Origin: Microbacterium sp.
Lineage (GTDB): Bacteria > Actinomycetota > Actinomycetes > Actinomycetales > Microbacteriaceae
DNA length: 64,000 nt
Direction of reading: 5' to 3'
NCBI GenBank assembly: GCA_017744855.1
Contig: JAGIAK010000001.1
Span: forward strand, 35,182 to 99,181
The notes under the pieces are model-generated. The model was not told the origin of the DNA and searched no databases. It saw only the letters and a program-made list of their open reading frames with translations. The stretch's first letter is position 1, and the number at the start of each line of letters is the position of its first letter. The position numbers and the translations under genes were made by a program. Of the stretch, positions 3,118 to 35,355 are shown piece by piece.

Positions 3118-4824
3118 TCAGGCCGAGTACACCTCGCGGCCGGCGAACCACGTCGACAGCACCCGGGCGTCGATGATCTGCTCGGCGGGACCGGAGACGG
3201 CGTCGCGGTCGAGCACCACGAAGTCCGCGGACTTGCCGACGGCGAGGGAGCCCGTGTGCGCGCCCAGCCCCATCGCGGTGGCGGCGTTGATCGTGAAGAC
3301 CTCGAGCGCCTCCTCGGCGGTGATCGCCTGCTCCGGCCACAGCGTGCCGGGAGCGCGCCCGAGCGGATCGGCGCGCGTCACGAGACCCTGCAGGCCCTCC
3401 AACGTGTTCGGGGACTCGCACACCGGCCAGTCGGACCCGCCGGCGACGAGGGCGCCGACGTCGAGCAGCGCACGATTGGGCTGCGAGTGCTCCGCCCGCT
3501 CGCCGAGCACCTCGGCCAGCGCCTGCGGGATCACCCCGGGGAACCAGATGAACGGAGAGATGTCGGCCGACACGTCCAGTGCGGCCAGGCGGGGGATGTC
3601 GGCATCCGCGAGGAACTGCCCGTGCGCGATCTGGATCGGCGTCGTGAAGCCCTCGGCACGGATCCTCTCCGCGACGTCGAGCACGAGCCGGGCCGAGCCG
3701 TCGCCCGTGCAGTGCACCTTGGCGCCGAGTCCGCGCTCTGCGACACCGCGCAGCCAGCCGTGCAGCTCGTCGAAGGTCATCGTCGTCTCGCCGTGGAAGT
3801 GCGCGCCGTGCACGGCATCCGCGACGTAGGGCTCGAGGAAGGATGCTGTGCGGGCGGGCGGGACCCCGTCGAGGAAGATCTTCACGAAGTCCGGGCGGTG
3901 GTGCGGGGTGCGGAACTCCTCGCCGCGGTCGATCAGTGACCGGCCGATCGGATCGAACCCGAAGATCTCGTCATTGACCAAGAGCGAGGAGACGACCCAG
4001 GCGTTCAGGTCGCCCGCGTCGTCGAGCGCGGCCAGCGCAGCGAGGATGTCGGTGGAGACCCCCGCATCCTGGAACGTCGTGATGCCGAACGAGTTCAACA
4101 GCTCGACCCCGCGCCGCGACGCCGCGACGTGCTGCTCCGGCGTGAGCCCGCCGCTGCGATCGTACGCCTCCTGCACGGGGATGCCCGCAGCCTCCAGCAG
4201 CACGCCCGTCGGGGTGCCGTCGTCGGGGTCGAGCACCGTGACGCCGCCGGCGGGGATGCTGTCGGCGGTGATGCCGGCGAGCTCCAGCGCGCGGCTGTTC
4301 GCCCAGCGGTTGTGCCGGGAGTCCTCGACGATCACCACGGGCCGCCCGCCGGCGGCTTCGTCGAGCCGCCGCCTCGTCGCAGTGTTCGCGAGCGAGGGCA
4401 GCAGCGTGGTCGCCACGACACCGCCGATGATCCACGCGTCGTCCGGCAGCGTCGCCGCCTTCTCGCGCACCCGGTCGAGGATCTCGTCGAGCCCGAGCGA
4501 CGGCGGCAGCGACAGCTCGAACAGCTCGGTGCGGCCGGCGAGGGCGTGATGGTTGTGCACGTCGACGAAGCCGGGGTACACCGCGGCTCCGCCGACGTCG
4601 AGCATCCGAGTCGCCGGACCCCGATGTGCGGACACCGCAGACAGCGATCCGACCGCGGCGATACGACCGTCGCGCACGGCGAAGGCCTCGACCACGGGCC
4701 GGGCGCGATCCGCGGTGCGGATCACCGCCCCGGTCACGATGAGGTCGGCGGCCAGAGACGTGGCCAGAGCCGGGGCGAAGTCGTCCTCCCGGCGACGCGC
4801 GACGTCGTCTGCGGCATCCGTCAT
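3118..4824 (-). CDS. Amidohydrolase family protein (YtcJ-like metal-dependent hydrolase)
   Basis: 568 aa; YPGFVDVHNHHALAG HxH metal motif, imidazolonepropionase-like ends, C-terminal GKSADFVVLDRD. Confidence 0.85.
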   Translation of the reverse strand: MTDAADDVARRREDDFAPALATSLAADLIVTGAVIRTADRARPVVEAFAVRDGRIAAVGSLSAVSAHRGPATRMLDVGGAAVYPGFVDVHNHHALAGRTELFELSLPPSLGLDEILDRVREKAATLPDDAWIIGGVVATTLLPSLANTATRRRLDEAAGGRPVVIVEDSRHNRWANSRALELAGITADSIPAGGVTVLDPDDGTPTGVLLEAAGIPVQEAYDRSGGLTPEQHVAASRRGVELLNSFGITTFQDAGVSTDILAALAALDDAGDLNAWVVSSLLVNDEIFGFDPIGRSLIDRGEEFRTPHHRPDFVKIFLDGVPPARTASFLEPYVADAVHGAHFHGETTMTFDELHGWLRGVAERGLGAKVHCTGDGSARLVLDVAERIRAEGFTTPIQIAHGQFLADADIPRLAALDVSADISPFIWFPGVIPQALAEVLGERAEHSQPNRALLDVGALVAGGSDWPVCESPNTLEGLQGLVTRADPLGRAPGTLWPEQAITAEEALEVFTINAATAMGLGAHTGSLAVGKSADFVVLDRDAVSGPAEQIIDARVLSTWFAGREVYSA

Positions 4825-9825: not shown

Positions 9826-10518
9826 TCAGCCGCCGAGGTACGCGCGGTGCAGCAGATCGGCGTCTGCCTGCAGAGCCTCGGCGGTGCCCTGGAACGACAC
9901 CTGCCCTCCCGCGACGACCACGGCCTCGCGGGCGAGGCCGAGTGCGAGCTGCGTGAACTGCTCCACGAGCAGCACGCCGACGCCCGACTCCGCGATCGAC
10001 TGCACGATGGGCATCAGCCGCATGAACACGACGGGTGCGAGGCCGAGTGACATCTCGTCGATGAGCAGGATGCGGGGCTTCGCCGCGAACGCACGGGCCA
10101 GCACCACCATCTGCTGCTCGCCGCCCGACAACAGGGCGGTCGGTGAGTCGATGCGCTTCTCGAGCTCGGGGAACTGCACCAGTGCGGCATCCAGTTCCCC
10201 CGGGGTGCGCGCGGTGAGCGCGATGTTCTCGCGCACGGTGAGCGAGGGGAACACAGCGCGCCCCTGCTCGATGTGCACGATGCCGCGGCGAGCCCTGGCG
10301 ACGCGCGAGAGCTTGTCGATCGGCACACCGTCGAGCGTGATCGAGCCCGCCGAGTGCGGGGTCACGCCCGAGATGGACTCGATCAGGCTGGTCTTGCCCG
10401 CACCGTTCGGCCCGACGAGCGCCAGCACCTCTCCGCCGGCGACGGTCAGGGACACGTCGGAGATGACGGGACCGGCACCGCGGCTGACGGTCACGCCGTC
10501 GAGGACGAGTTCGCTCAC
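9826..10518 (-). CDS. ABC transporter ATP-binding protein, branched-chain amino acid type (LivF-like)
   Basis: GPNGAGKTS Walker A, LSGGEQQMV signature, LLIDEMSLGLAP Walker B. Confidence 0.88.
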   Translation of the reverse strand: MSELVLDGVTVSRGAGPVISDVSLTVAGGEVLALVGPNGAGKTSLIESISGVTPHSAGSITLDGVPIDKLSRVARARRGIVHIEQGRAVFPSLTVRENIALTARTPGELDAALVQFPELEKRIDSPTALLSGGEQQMVVLARAFAAKPRILLIDEMSLGLAPVVFMRLMPIVQSIAESGVGVLLVEQFTQLALGLAREAVVVAGGQVSFQGTAEALQADADLLHRAYLGG

Positions 10519-12305
10519 TTCAGCAGCTCCGTCTCTCCCATGTACGCCTTCACGACGTCGGGGTTCGCGAGGACCTCGGCCTGCGGCCCGCTCGCCAGCA
10601 CCCGGCCGAAGTCGAGCACGGTGAGGGTGGGGCAGACCGAGCGCACGAGGTCGAGGTCGTGCTCGATGATGATCAGCGCCACACCGTAGCGCGTGGGGAG
10701 CTCCCGCAGGCGAGCGGCCAGCGCCAGGTGCTCGTCGTGCGAGAGGCCGGCGGCCGGCTCGTCGAGGATGAGCAGGCGGGGACGGGAGACCACGTTGGCC
10801 GCCACCTCCACGAGTCGGCGGGTGCCGACATCGACGCTCGACAACCGTGCTCTGGCGGGCGGGCAGCCGAAGAACTCCAGCACCTCGTCGATGTCGGATG
10901 CCGCGAGCCGGCGCCGCGCGACGAACCGCACGTACGCGCCGACGGTGAGCGCGGGCGGCACCCTGTCCTGCTGGAAGGTGCGGCGCAGCCCGAGCCGCGC
11001 GCGGCGCGTGGGGGAGAGACCGGCGAGGTCGCGGTCTCCGAGCAGCACGCGTCCGCCGTGCTTGGGCAGGAAGCCGCTGATCGCGTCGACGAAGGTCGAC
11101 TTGCCCGCGCCGTTCGGCCCGATGAGACCCATGATCGACGCGGCGGGCACCTGGAACGACACGTCGTCCAGCGCCTTCAGCGCGCCGAACTGCACCGTGA
11201 GGCCCTCGACCGTGAGCACGGGCGCCCCGTCGAGCGCGGCCTCGTCGACGGTCGCCGTGGTCGTGGTGGTGATCGCAGCGGCGTCGGCCCCGGCATCCGG
11301 TGGCAGCGCGGAGAGCGTCGCGTTCGCGGTCTTGCGGTCGGTGCGCTTCCAGATGAGGTCGCGCACGGTCTGGCCGAGGTTCGTGCCGCTGGTCAGCGCC
11401 TGCACGCCCAGGATGCCGAAGACGACGAAGCCCCAGTTCTGGTCGACCTCCCAGCGCTTGAGCAGCTCGGGCACGAGCACCCAGAGGATGCCGCCGAGGA
11501 TCGCCATGTCGATGAGGTGCGCGCCCGACATGATCGCGAGCACGTAGAGCGCGAGCGACTGCAGCGGGGTGAAGCTCGCAGCGAGGGGGAGCTGCACCTG
11601 CCCGGCGAGCAACCCGCCCGCGATGCCGCCGAGCGCCGCCGACACCGCGAAGGCGCTGAGCTTGGCCGACTGCACGCTCTGCCCGGAGGCGGCGGTGCCG
11701 CGCTCGGAGAACGCCACGGCCTTCCACGACGATCCCCAGCGCCCGCGCTGCAGGAAGAACACCGCGAGCGCGCACACGGCGAGCACGATGACCGCGAGGA
11801 AGAAGAACTGCCGGTCGTTGGAGAACAGCTCGGGGCGTTCCACCGCTATACCGTCGGCGGAGCCGGGGAACTGGATCTGCACGAGCGTGACGTCGGCCGC
11901 CGCGGCGAAGCCGAGGGTGACGACGGCGAGGTTGACGCCGCGCAGGCGAAGGGCGGGGAGTCCGACGAGGATGCCGGCGAGCCCCGCGGCGATGCCGCCG
12001 GCGAGCAGCCACACCACGAACCCGCCAGGGGCGTGGATCACGCTCAGCAGCGACACGATCCACGCGCCGATCGCGGCGAACGTGAGCTGGCACAGGGCGA
12101 TCATGCCCGCGGAGCCCGTGACGATGCCGAGGCCGAGGATCGCGATCGACGCGATGATCGCGCTGATGGCGAGGAAGACGAAGTAGCCGTTGAGGCCGAC
12201 GCTCAGCAGGTAGCCGACGCCGATCGCGGCTGCGGCCACGACGAAGGGCCAGGAGAGGCGGTAGCCGCGGCTCTCGGTGAAACGTGTGCGGTCAGCGTGC
12301 GGCAT
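10515..12305 (-). CDS. Fused LivM-like permease and LivG-like ATP-binding protein
   Basis: 596 aa: N-terminal TM domain, C-terminal ATPase (GPNGAGKSTFVDAISG, LLILDEPAAGLS). 4-bp overlap with livF. Confidence 0.85.
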   Translation of the reverse strand: MPHADRTRFTESRGYRLSWPFVVAAAAIGVGYLLSVGLNGYFVFLAISAIIASIAILGLGIVTGSAGMIALCQLTFAAIGAWIVSLLSVIHAPGGFVVWLLAGGIAAGLAGILVGLPALRLRGVNLAVVTLGFAAAADVTLVQIQFPGSADGIAVERPELFSNDRQFFFLAVIVLAVCALAVFFLQRGRWGSSWKAVAFSERGTAASGQSVQSAKLSAFAVSAALGGIAGGLLAGQVQLPLAASFTPLQSLALYVLAIMSGAHLIDMAILGGILWVLVPELLKRWEVDQNWGFVVFGILGVQALTSGTNLGQTVRDLIWKRTDRKTANATLSALPPDAGADAAAITTTTTATVDEAALDGAPVLTVEGLTVQFGALKALDDVSFQVPAASIMGLIGPNGAGKSTFVDAISGFLPKHGGRVLLGDRDLAGLSPTRRARLGLRRTFQQDRVPPALTVGAYVRFVARRRLAASDIDEVLEFFGCPPARARLSSVDVGTRRLVEVAANVVSRPRLLILDEPAAGLSHDEHLALAARLRELPTRYGVALIIIEHDLDLVRSVCPTLTVLDFGRVLASGPQAEVLANPDVVKAYMGETELLK

Positions 12306-13152
12306 CCCACACCTCCTTGCGCTGCGTCCAGAGCAGCAGAACGACGATGAACAGGAACGGCAGGAAGTTGCGCACCAGCGCGACCTCGTCGATCTGGGCG
12401 ACGAGGCCGCCGAGCACGCCCAGCACGACGCCGCCGATGACGGCGAGATCGAGTCGGCGGAAACCGCCCAGCAGCGCGGCCGCAGCGGCGGGGACGATGA
12501 GCATCGAGAGGCTGGTCGCGTCGTTCGACTGCGATGGCGCGACGATGATGATCGCGATCGCGCTGATGACGCCGGTGACGAACCACACCGCGATCGACAG
12601 CGGGCGCGAGCGGATGCCGAGGAGTTCGGCGGTGGTCGGTCGCTCCGACAGGGCCCGCAGCTGCGTGCCGACCCTGGTGCGGCGCAGGATGACGCGCACG
12701 GCGACCGCTGTGATGATCGCCATCACCACCGTCGCGACGGTGACCTGGCTGATCACCACGCCGCCGAGCGAGAAGGCGGGGCCGGCGATGATCGGAGTGA
12801 ACGGCTGCGGCTTGTTGCCGAACAGGATGAACGACAGCGAGATCAGCAGGAGCAGCGGGCCGACGGTCATCGCCGAGCGGGTCGTGGTCGACGCCTCGGA
12901 GAGCCAGGTCGCGGCGATCCAGCCGATCGCGGCGGCGAGGAGGCCGGCGATGAGGATGCCGAGCACGGAGCCCAGCCAGATCGGCAGGCCGAGGTGGCGT
13001 ACGAACCAGACGGCGGTGAACGCGCCGAACATCCCGGTCGCGGCCTGGGCGAAGTTGACGACCCGCACGAGGCGGCTCATCAGGGTCAGGCACACGCCGA
13101 GGACGGCGTAGAGGCCGCCGGCGGCGAGACCGGCGATGGCGCCTTGCAGCAT
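12292..13152 (-). CDS. ABC transporter permease, LivH-like
   Basis: GLAAGGLYAVLGVCLTLMSRLVRVVNFAQA typical LivH N-terminus. Confidence 0.85.
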   Translation of the reverse strand: MLQGAIAGLAAGGLYAVLGVCLTLMSRLVRVVNFAQAATGMFGAFTAVWFVRHLGLPIWLGSVLGILIAGLLAAAIGWIAATWLSEASTTTRSAMTVGPLLLLISLSFILFGNKPQPFTPIIAGPAFSLGGVVISQVTVATVVMAIITAVAVRVILRRTRVGTQLRALSERPTTAELLGIRSRPLSIAVWFVTGVISAIAIIIVAPSQSNDATSLSMLIVPAAAAALLGGFRRLDLAVIGGVVLGVLGGLVAQIDEVALVRNFLPFLFIVVLLLWTQRKEVWDAAR

Positions 13153-13194
13153 GAGGCGTCCTTTCTGATCTGAGGGGGTGATTCCGGGCTCCCG

Positions 13195-13475
13195 GTCGTC
13201 GAGCGAGTGGACCCGCGTCCCGGTCCCACGGTCGTTGAGCGAGCGAAGCGAGACGAAACGCGACGAGCGAGTCCGCCGCCTGGTCGTTGAGCGAGCGAAG
13301 CGAGACGAAACGCCGTGTTCCTGCGTCGAACGCCGGATGAGGCGTTTCGTCTCGGTCGCTTCGCTCCCTCGCTCAACGACCCGGGAGTCGCTCCGTTCCC
13401 TCGCTCAACGACCCGGGTGGAGCTTCGCTCCCTCGCTCAACGACCGGGAGGAGCTCTGGTCGGTCGCTCAACGAC
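13195..13475. repeat. Cluster of inverted/direct GTCGTTGAGCGAGCGAAGCGAGACGAAACG elements (REPIN-like)
   Basis: Forward copies 13231-13260 and 13283-13312; inverted copies 13343-13380, 13391-13412, about 13421-13444 and 13461-13475; degenerate copy at 13195. Confidence 0.8.
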
Positions 13476-13487
13476 CGGGAGGGGCGG

Positions 13488-14654
13488 TCACTTGCCGATG
13501 CGCAGCCAGTCGTCGGCGACCTTCTCCCAGGCGTTGGTGCCCGACTTGAGGATGATCGGCCAGCCTGCGGTGTTCTGCGTGCCGAAGGCATACGGCGTGC
13601 CGACCATCGGGTTCTCGATCGGCTTCATGCCCTGAAGCGCCGCGGTGACGGTCTCCCGGTTGATGTCGCCCTTCATGCCCTTGAGCACCTCGATGAAGTA
13701 CTTGGCCGCGAGGTAGCCGCCCTGGCTGAACGAGGTGAGCGGGATGTCGTTCTTGGTCATCAGCTCACGCCAGTCCTTGTTGATCTCGTTGTCGTCCGTG
13801 AACGGGTAGAACTCCGCGGGGACGTAGATGCCGGCGCCGGCGTTGTCGATCGCCTTGGCGAAGTTCTCGCTGTAGACGCTGGTCAGGTACAGCCAGGTGA
13901 CGTCATCCCAGCCCTGCGCGTTGGCGGCCTTGACCTGGCCGATCGCGTCGGGCTCGACGGGGTTGATCGCGAGCGCCTTGCAGCCCTGCTCACGCGCCTT
14001 CACGATGTACGGCGTGTAGTCGGATGCACCGTAGGGCACGGTGTCGTCGACATACTTCGGCTTCTTGCCGGTGATCTCGGTCCACTTGTCGATCGCGGCC
14101 TGGTAGGTCGGACGGGTGGAGCCGGCGATCTCGAGCAGCACGCAGATGTCGTCGAGGCCGAGCACCTCCGAGCCGTACTGCAGGGTCAGCGTCATGTCGT
14201 TGAACGGGCCGACGTTGGCCGGTGAGATGTTCTTGCTGTCGAAGCATCCGGTGTCGACGCCGATGCCGGGGATGGAGAGGATCTTCTCCTGCTCGTAGTA
14301 CTTCGCGTTGATCTCGCACTCGATCAGGCTCGCCGAGCCGACCAGCGCGACGGCCTCGTCGCTGCCGACCAGCTCACGGGCGGACGCCGTGGCGGTCGCA
14401 GGGTCGCCCTTGTCGTCGAGGGTCTTGTACTCGATCTTGCGGCCGTTCAGTCCGCCCTCGTCGTTGAACTGCTTGAAGACGGCGGCCGCGGCCTGCGAGG
14501 CCTCGGGGAACGTCGCCGGACCGCTGATGGTGTTGACGGAGCCGACGACGATGGGGGCGTCACCGCCTCCGCCGTCTCCTCCGCCGGCGCAGCCGGACAG
14601 GATGAGGGCGGTCACGGCGATGAGCGCCGCGGCGCCGGATGCTCGCTTGTTCAT
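13488..14654 (-). CDS. ABC transporter substrate-binding protein, branched-chain amino acid/amide type
   Basis: Lipobox LILSGCAGG, then IVVGSVNTISGPATFPEASQAAAAVFKQFNDEGGLNGR. Confidence 0.88.
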   Translation of the reverse strand: MNKRASGAAALIAVTALILSGCAGGGDGGGGDAPIVVGSVNTISGPATFPEASQAAAAVFKQFNDEGGLNGRKIEYKTLDDKGDPATATASARELVGSDEAVALVGSASLIECEINAKYYEQEKILSIPGIGVDTGCFDSKNISPANVGPFNDMTLTLQYGSEVLGLDDICVLLEIAGSTRPTYQAAIDKWTEITGKKPKYVDDTVPYGASDYTPYIVKAREQGCKALAINPVEPDAIGQVKAANAQGWDDVTWLYLTSVYSENFAKAIDNAGAGIYVPAEFYPFTDDNEINKDWRELMTKNDIPLTSFSQGGYLAAKYFIEVLKGMKGDINRETVTAALQGMKPIENPMVGTPYAFGTQNTAGWPIILKSGTNAWEKVADDWLRIGK

Positions 14655-33380: not shown

Positions 33381-34360
33381 CCGTCGAGGGAGAGCACGCG
33401 GCGCAGCCAGCTCTCCCTGGCGTCGTTCGCCGCGCGGGAGACCTCGGCATCCGGGGAGAAGCCGGAGAAGCCGTGGTAGGCGCCGGCCCACACGTGCAGC
33501 TCGGCCTGACCGCCGGTCGCCCAGATCCGCAGGGCGTAGTCGACCGCCTCGTCGCGGAACGTCTCGGCGGCGCCGACCTCGATGAACGCGGGGGCGAGAT
33601 CGGACAGGTCGCGAGCCCGTGCGGGGGCCGTGTACGGCGAGAGGTCATCGCTGAAACGGTCGTCGCCGGCGATGGCCGTCCACGCGGTGTCGTTGTTGTG
33701 GCGGTCCCACGCGCCGATGCCGTCGTACTGCCGGCTCGACACGGTCTCGTTGCGGTCGTCGAGCATGGGGCAGCCGAGCAGCTGACCGGCGAGGCGCGGA
33801 CCCCCGCGGTCGCGGGACATCAGCGCCACGGCCGCCGACAGTCCACCGCCCGCGCTCATGCCGGAGGCGATGATGCGGTCGGGGTCGATGCCGAGCTCCT
33901 CGGCATGCGCTGCCATCCACTCCAGCGCGGCGTAGCAGTCTTCGGCCTGCGCTGGTCCGGGGTGCTCCGGGGCCAGCCGGTACTCCACGGCGACGCCGAC
34001 GACTCCGTGCCGCTCGGCGAGGTCGATGAGCTCGCCGGTGCCGAAGAACCGGGTGCCCAGCACCATGCCTCCGCCGTGGATCGACAGGACGGCGGGGGCC
34101 GGAGCGGATGCCGCGTGCCGCGGCCGCACGATCGTGATCTCCACGTCGGGGGCGCCCACCGGGCCGGGGATGACCCTGTCCTCCCAGATCACGTCGCGGC
34201 CCTCGACCTGCGCGGCCATCGGCGGGATGATCGTGGCGAAGTGCGCGCGGTTGGCGAGGATCGTGTCGGCGCGCAGCGGGATGATCTCAACGAGGTCGAG
34301 GAACGCCTCCAGCCCCTGGACGAGCTCCGGGTCGTACGGGACCGGGGCGGGGGCGCTCAC
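33377..34360 (-). CDS. Alpha/beta hydrolase fold esterase (hormone-sensitive-lipase type)
   Basis: SIHGGGMVLG, IIASGMSAGGGLSAA (GxSxG); ATGA overlap with the MFS gene. Confidence 0.88.
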   Translation of the reverse strand: MSAPAPVPYDPELVQGLEAFLDLVEIIPLRADTILANRAHFATIIPPMAAQVEGRDVIWEDRVIPGPVGAPDVEITIVRPRHAASAPAPAVLSIHGGGMVLGTRFFGTGELIDLAERHGVVGVAVEYRLAPEHPGPAQAEDCYAALEWMAAHAEELGIDPDRIIASGMSAGGGLSAAVALMSRDRGGPRLAGQLLGCPMLDDRNETVSSRQYDGIGAWDRHNNDTAWTAIAGDDRFSDDLSPYTAPARARDLSDLAPAFIEVGAAETFRDEAVDYALRIWATGGQAELHVWAGAYHGFSGFSPDAEVSRAANDARESWLRRVLSLDG

Positions 34361-35355
34361 GAGCGCACTCCCCAGACTCGGCGCAGCCACGAGGAGCGGG
34401 CGGCCAGCGCGGCTCGCGTGATCTCGGCATCCGGCATGTACATGTCGAAGCCGTGCGCCCCGCCGCCCCACACGTGCAGCTCGGCCTGGCCGCCGGTGGC
34501 CCAGATGCGCAGCGCGTATTCGGTGTCCTCGTCGCGGAAGGCCTCGGCCTCGCCGACCTCGATGTACGCTGGCGGGAGGCCGGCGAGATCCGTGGCGCGG
34601 CTGGGGGCGGCGTAGGCGGGAGCATCCGCGCTGAAGGCGAGCTCGTCGCCGAGCACGCACGACCAGGCGAGCAGGTTGGCCTCGCGCTGCCAGGTGCCGA
34701 TGCCGTCGTACTGCCGGCTCGCGACCGTGGTGTTGGTGTTGTCGATCATCGGGCACAGCAGCAGCTGGCCGGTCATCACCGGCCCCTGTCGATCGCGGGC
34801 CAGGAGCGCGACGGCCGCGGTGAGTCCGCCGCCCGCGCTGCCGCCGCCCACGACGATCCGCTCGGGGTCGATGCCCAGCGCGGCGGCGTTCGCGTGCGTC
34901 CAGACGAAAGCCGCGTAGCAGTCCTCCACCCCGGCGGGGTAGGGGTCCTCGGGGGCGAGTCGGTACTCGACGTTGATGGCGACGACCCGGTGCTCCTCGA
35001 CGATGTCGACGACCCGGGCGGTCTCCCACGAACGGTGGCCGACGATCATGCCGCCGCCGTGGATGTTGACGAATCCGGGCAGCGTCTCGCCCTCGCTGCC
35101 CCGTGGGCGGAAGATCGTGATCTCCACGTCGGGCGCGCCGGCGGGGCCGGGGATCACGCGGTCCTCCCAGTCGATCGCGCGGCCGGCGATGACGGTGTCG
35201 TTGTCGGGGAAGACGCTGTCTGTGCCCTCGCGCGGCAGCGTGTCACGCGTGAGCGGGGGCTGCGGGTTCGCGGCGAGGATGTCGAGCACGGCCTGCACCT
35301 CGGGGTCGAAGGGCACGGGCGTGACGGTGGGGCGGCCGGCGGCGGTGGCGGTCAT
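34357..35355 (-). CDS. Alpha/beta hydrolase fold esterase (tandem paralogue)
   Basis: NIHGGGMIVG, IVVGGGSAGGGLTAA. Confidence 0.88.
   Translation of the reverse strand: MTATAAGRPTVTPVPFDPEVQAVLDILAANPQPPLTRDTLPREGTDSVFPDNDTVIAGRAIDWEDRVIPGPAGAPDVEITIFRPRGSEGETLPGFVNIHGGGMIVGHRSWETARVVDIVEEHRVVAINVEYRLAPEDPYPAGVEDCYAAFVWTHANAAALGIDPERIVVGGGSAGGGLTAAVALLARDRQGPVMTGQLLLCPMIDNTNTTVASRQYDGIGTWQREANLLAWSCVLGDELAFSADAPAYAAPSRATDLAGLPPAYIEVGEAEAFRDEDTEYALRIWATGGQAELHVWGGGAHGFDMYMPDAEITRAALAARSSWLRRVWGVRS

Follow-up and report, generated by a model that had tools for sequence, protein, structure and literature searches.

What is the cluster of inverted repeats that separates a transport binding-protein gene from its permease genes in this Microbacterium, and how did it come to lie there? 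The cluster lies in a 335-nt gap in a minus-strand operon within the 64,000-nucleotide stretch of DNA that was analysed (the window). The upstream gene (13488..14654, minus strand) encodes a binding protein of the branched-chain amino acid/urea type, as indicated by weak UrtA/LivJ matches. Beyond the repeats, on the same strand, come a livH/urtB-type permease gene (12292..13152), a frame for a 596-aa protein (10515..12305) with a LivG-type ATPase as its C-terminal and a permease-like part as its N-terminal portion, apparently a permease/ATPase fusion, and a livF-type ATPase gene (9826..10518). This gene order agrees with an earlier reading of the DNA, made from the sequence only, which had placed the cluster inside the operon.

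Two complete short repeats lie in the gap on the plus strand (S1, 13230..13261, GGTCGTTGAGCGAGCGAAGCGAGACGAAACGC, and the identical S2, 13282..13313), together with one complete long repeat on the minus strand (L1, 13342..13381, GGTCGTTGAGCGAGGGAGCGAAGCGACCGAGACGAAACGC), which is the inverted partner of S2. L differs from S in its core, where GGAGCGAAGCGACC stands at the place of CGAAGC. Three truncated L copies follow, also on the minus strand, at 13382..13413, 13414..13445 (with a GGAGC-GAA-GCTCC hairpin of its own) and 13446..13476 (more diverged); they are 5' halves of 31-32 nt in tandem, lacking the CGAAACG foot, and were evidently produced by later local tandem duplication. The gap also has a degenerate fragment, consisting of the 5' head of a repeat (GGTCGTCGAGCGAG, 13194..13207, plus strand). 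The sequence-only reading had counted at least six copies, two forward and four inverted, and these counts hold, but the copies are not equal, as three of the four inverted ones are truncated. It had also paired 13283-13312 along all 30 nt with 13343-13380, leaving two 4-nt bulges, a pairing that follows directly from the sequences, with the bulges representing the longer L core. The exact 30-mer occurs twice on the plus strand (13231-13260 and 13283-13312) and in none of the shuffled windows. Allowing for up to 2 mismatches, the 14-nt head is found at 11 places in the window, where 2.1 would be expected, and 7 of the 11 lie inside 13195-13475. Rfam matches in the cluster (MIR8670, CrfA) scored far under their gathering thresholds and were taken as chance, and the one terminator-like site found (13279-13260, minus strand) is weak.

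Each repeat is an imperfect palindrome on its own purine-rich strand. Read 5' to 3' on that strand, S has the form CGTT-GA-G-C-GA-GC-GNA-GC-GA-G-W-C-GA-AACG, in which CGTT pairs with AACG and GC with GC, and in which all mismatches are tandem G.A in 5'-GA/5'-GA order, accompanied by one bulged A or T. The general unit may be written 5'-GGT-CGTT-GA-GC-[GA...GNA...GA]-G-W-C-GA-AACG-3', its elements being CGTT/AACG, tandem G.A, a G-C pair, the bulged A or T, a C-G pair, a variable stem and a GNA or GNNA loop. Describing the cluster as REPIN-like inverted repeats was correct as to the pairing between units and overlooked the hairpin that each unit can form by itself on one strand. Long forms carry symmetric module insertions, such as G-GA/GA-C, GG-GA/GA-CC and C-GA/GA-G (the last being a swapped pair); mirror symmetry is preserved among the length variants, and the stems covary. 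Across 66 distinct long forms, Watson-Crick, GU or GA combinations occupy 94.6% of mirror positions, compared with 53.5% when the inner sequence is shuffled. Moving the axis by half a position lowered the value to 26-29%, and moving it by one position to 61-63%, the latter figure reflecting GA repetition. Tandem GA appears in the sheared-compatible 5'-GA/5'-GA order 102 times in these forms and in the opposite order 0 times. Among 17 distinct 38-mers from a single genome (G089), 98.5% of cells were paired and 22 cells were altered on both sides, a level of covariation reached by 0 of 500 shuffles; slid controls gave 1 to 8. Of 244 copies, 229 have a GNA or GNNA loop, and the central residue of the GNA loops is A (85), C (82) or G (50), with T rare (6).

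In DNA, tandem 5'-GA-3' mismatches adopt a stable sheared pairing when a pyrimidine precedes them. GNA or GNNA loops on at least two G-C pairs characterize a class of ultrastable DNA mini-hairpins, among which GCGAAGC melts at 78 C (PMC4686876); a GTA loop is 6 C less stable than a GAA loop (PMC6479982). The d(GCGNAGC) mini-hairpins, which are synthetic oligonucleotides, have this loop and the same minimum of two G-C pairs beneath it (PMC4686876); in Microbacterium the motif caps a repeat that is scattered over the genome. Such a hairpin would be strand-specific, because the complementary strand would carry C.T mismatches. With Vienna DNA parameters a stable fold of the single unit was not predicted, and with Vienna RNA parameters the minimum for a long form was exactly the proposed fold (-8.8 kcal/mol). 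That a single unit would be stable as DNA is argued from the published GNA data and from general knowledge of sheared G.A pairs. The GNNA loops seen here (GCCA, and GCTA in a second repeat family described below) are not GNRA loops, and the repeats show no preference for either orientation with respect to transcription (24 same, 33 opposite; p = 0.29), as expected of an element that acts at the DNA level. We therefore favour DNA over RNA as the functional form; an RNA role is also possible.

The repeats extend well beyond this operon. The genome from which the window derives (3.14 Mb in 214 contigs, 79% complete) contains 56 copies at up to 3 mismatches, against 0 for the reversed control, so that uniqueness to the window locus is refuted; the broader pattern CGTTGAGC N4-34 CGAAAC marks 91 places. 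Copies were present in 55 of 79 sampled Microbacterium genomes, at 1 to ~297 per carrying genome. Among the matches listed, the exact S consensus occurs almost only in Microbacterium contigs. A single representative of each of 11 other families of the same order had between 0 and 2 occurrences of the pattern. The open-access literature, searched by repeat sequence and for REPs of actinobacteria, yielded no account of the element. These numbers bear on one rival account of the cluster, namely low-complexity, purine-rich tandem DNA that slippage and gene conversion would generate, without any mechanism of dispersal. The truncated 31-32 nt copies here and the tandem S arrays elsewhere are clearly local duplications, as that account would have it. 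It is nevertheless refuted as a complete explanation by the spread of copies over dozens of gaps that are not linked, by outer half-sites conserved around covarying inner stems and by reversed-pattern controls of 0, and we give it hardly any credence.

The location of the copies was analysed in one genome (G008) and in a set of GTDB loci, which were chosen as containing an S copy and are not a random sample. Genes were called by codon usage, with a gene finder that had been trained on stretches of G008 (coding fraction 0.884; starts uncurated, small shifts possible). By these calls, 155 of the 157 copies in G008 and 236 of the 253 at the GTDB loci are intergenic. Repeats are over-represented in gaps between convergent genes (p = 1.5e-5 in G008 and 4.7e-5 in the GTDB loci) and under-represented in those between divergent genes (p = 6e-4 and 3e-7), and the units lie mostly at gene 3' ends. 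S and L are oppositely oriented in 20 of 27 gaps in G008 and 37 of 47 in the GTDB loci (57 of 74 together); solo copies and tandem copies in the same orientation are common. Orthologous gaps are occupied in some species and empty in others; for instance, a repeat that follows the stop codon at one of two loci (L225/L240) is absent from the other. Neither target-site duplication nor excision was seen in such gaps, which are too diverged for exact borders.

Separately, a near-absolute replication-strand bias of S in G008 proved to be an artefact of forward matches being listed first. With all positions included, S orientation in that genome differs by side of dnaA (~2.51 Mb; 13:3 versus 7:15, p = 0.004), a moderate bias observed in one genome, with the switch closer to 2.2 Mb than to dnaA. 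On contig C1 of the same genome, the 1.47 Mb position divides the repeat clusters unevenly, with 7 on its lower side and 36 on its upper side (p = 2e-5).

A second family of repeats has a similar build. The pattern GGTTGAGC N2-32 CGAAACC occurs at 77, 52, 32, 10 and 10 places in five genomes of one other taxonomic family of the class (f38: G150, G240, G258, G374, G284). Two further families contributed one genome each (42 and 13 places), and reversed controls were near 0. Its inner stems change on both sides, as in GGTTGC-GCA-GCAACC, GGTCGC-GCA-GCGACC, GGGCGC-GCA-GCGCCC and GGGC-GA-G-GAA-C-GA-GCCC, and its loops are mostly GNA or GNNA. The outermost pair is G-C in this family and C-G in the Microbacterium repeats. 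Common descent of the two families seems likely.

Comparison with known systems places the Microbacterium repeats as a real REP-like variant that differs from known REPs in build. They are 20-50 nt imperfect palindromes, high in copy number and intergenic, as REPs are; S2 and L1 are two inverted units forming a hairpin, as in a REPIN, and two repeat types alternate inversely and in tandem, as in a BIME. The REP/BIME elements of E. coli (y, z1, z2) are 20-50 nt palindromes of two inversely oriented types with a mismatch or bulge in the stem (PMC8266576), and the likeness extends to their intergenic position, their inverse two-type mosaics and the conservation of that stem mismatch or bulge. In contrast to these, the Microbacterium repeat has no GTAG, its foot is GGT-CGTTGA...CGAAACG, its stem carries tandem GA and is closed by GNA or GNNA loops, and no TnpA_REP (Y1) was found. 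The copies inspected have GGT(C) as their 5' flank and no terminal GTAG tetranucleotide; they begin GGTCGTTGAG and end CGAAACG, without an unpaired CGTC tag at the end. CGTC-tagged REPs are likewise short palindromic repeats apparently lacking a dedicated transposase, described from Proteobacteria, Chlorobi, Bacteroidetes, Spirochaetes and Thermotogae and not reported from Actinobacteria (PMC3733652), but both tag and stem differ from those of the Microbacterium repeats. A MITE of a DDE transposon would share terminal inverted repeats with an autonomous element and be flanked by target-site duplications; what bears on this here are the DUF222 genes that repeats bracket in genome G014 (see below) and orthologous gaps in which no duplication could be made out.

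A classical REPIN system, in which a RAYT (Y1 tyrosine transposase) disperses inverted REP doublets, would account for high-copy, intergenic, inverted doublets with bulged hairpins and for the general resemblance to published REP/REPIN elements (PMC3116915, PMC8266576). Those of Pseudomonas fluorescens SBW25, which occur with RAYTs, are likewise extragenic inverted doublets that form clusters in tandem order (PMC3116915), whereas solo copies and same-orientation tandems are common in Microbacterium and no RAYT was found in the genomes tested. Profile searches for Y1_Tnp (PF01797), positive in five control genomes, gave no match in the 79% complete genome of the window or in 12 of 12 repeat-rich genomes. 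Given this result and the missing GTAG tag, the repeats are not a RAYT-REPIN system by the tests run, and we regard that explanation as very improbable. Of the mobile REPIN-like family put forward in the sequence-only reading, the dispersed, high-copy, intergenic character and the inverted pairing stand, and the RAYT-like transposase finds no support in these searches.

Another candidate for the mobilising enzyme is DUF222-HNH. The repeats could be ends or remnants of a mobile gene unit of this type (13E12-type) that also moves solo repeats. In genome G014, seven paralogous DUF222 units (L061-L067) of 1.7 kb each lie between inverted repeats, S(+) and S(-) being ~1.7 kb apart; one gene examined matched PF02720 at E = 2e-16, and an HNH-like motif was recognized by eye. 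For several pairs of units, homology begins and ends at the GGTC/GACC of the repeats, although some units are also alike for ~190 bp beyond one end, at higher identity than inside. In G008, all seven DUF222 5' ends are within 300 bp of a repeat cluster, a position for which 1.2% of the genome qualifies, and the clusters lie directly upstream of the genes (L084, L115, L121, L126, L130, L133, L136). However, six of these seven genes are paralogs of one another, with a 3' end that diverges before the gene is complete, so that they are not independent events, and there is no repeat at the 3' side of these six. Some orthologous gaps are common to repeat clusters and DUF222 genes; in the gap upstream of a gene judged by eye to resemble rpmB, two strains carry repeats and two others carry a DUF222 gene (L159, L081, L326, L088). 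A common insertion point of the DUF222 gene and the S copy (L159/L081) was considered and rejected, as alignment puts the two some distance apart in the same gap.

Elsewhere the association mostly fails. No repeats were found within 1.5 kb of the three DUF222 genes in the genome of the window, of 28 of the 30 best Microbacterium DUF222 loci or of 27 of 30 loci from other families, and the gene is present in 78 of 79 sampled Microbacterium genomes whether or not they carry repeats. Since repeats are absent near most DUF222 genes, we rejected DUF222 as a general partner: it is a candidate in two species, not a general explanation, and the rival as a whole appears unlikely. The REP13E12/DUF222-HNH elements of Mycobacterium tuberculosis resemble the arrangement in those two species, where multi-copy DUF222 genes are tied to repeats, but REP13E12 units carry a protein gene, whereas the window cluster encodes no DUF222-HNH gene or other protein and most Microbacterium DUF222 genes have no repeats. 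One DUF222 gene without nearby repeats is located at 33769-34656 of the contig, just left of the window, which starts at 35182.

We consider it probable, with some reserve, that the cluster represents a BIME-like array whose units belong to a non-autonomous, REP-like family, are palindromic on one strand and are moved in trans by a non-Y1 enzyme. The purine-rich strand would fold when single-stranded, and a nuclease or recombinase acting in trans might recognize the folded strand and copy units into new gaps. This mobiliser would not be a Y1/RAYT enzyme of the PF01797 family, and DUF222-HNH may fill the role in some species only. As a by-product, the inverted S2/L1 pair could place a strong hairpin in the mRNA at the junction of the binding-protein and permease messages, where it might shield the upstream message or lower the downstream one. 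An excess of binding protein through such an RNA hairpin, of the kind known for the REP at malE-malF, would be plausible. A rival view is that the cluster is a regulatory RNA kept to give more binding protein than permease. As operon-sense RNA the 335-nt gap folds at -192.4 kcal/mol, far beyond shuffled sequences (z = -7.0; 0 of 100), and the orthologous gap of Microbacterium sp. ASV49 (L153, ~4515-4588) likewise has two S copies in inverted orientation, separated by a very short spacer, which fits retention without proving function. Against this, orientation relative to transcription is unbiased genome-wide, and most sites lie between unrelated genes and vary among species; retention for regulation seems rather unlikely.

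Most of what is known of REP elements comes from Proteobacteria and from systems that have a RAYT transposase. In Actinobacteria, a structured family of REP-like repeats with ~300 copies in some genomes and no Y1 enzyme found raises the question of what spreads the repeats. The covarying stems with GNA loops and tandem G.A suggest that a natural genomic repeat uses the ultrastable d(GCGNAGC) mini-hairpin, to our knowledge so far known as a laboratory motif. DUF222-HNH genes, whose function is unknown, occur in several copies in many actinobacteria, and their association with these repeats would be a first hint about them. We tentatively suggest that several actinobacterial lineages may carry a REP-like class built on strand-specific single-stranded DNA hairpins with sheared G.A pairs and GNA loops, spread by a non-Y1 mover, possibly DUF222-HNH.
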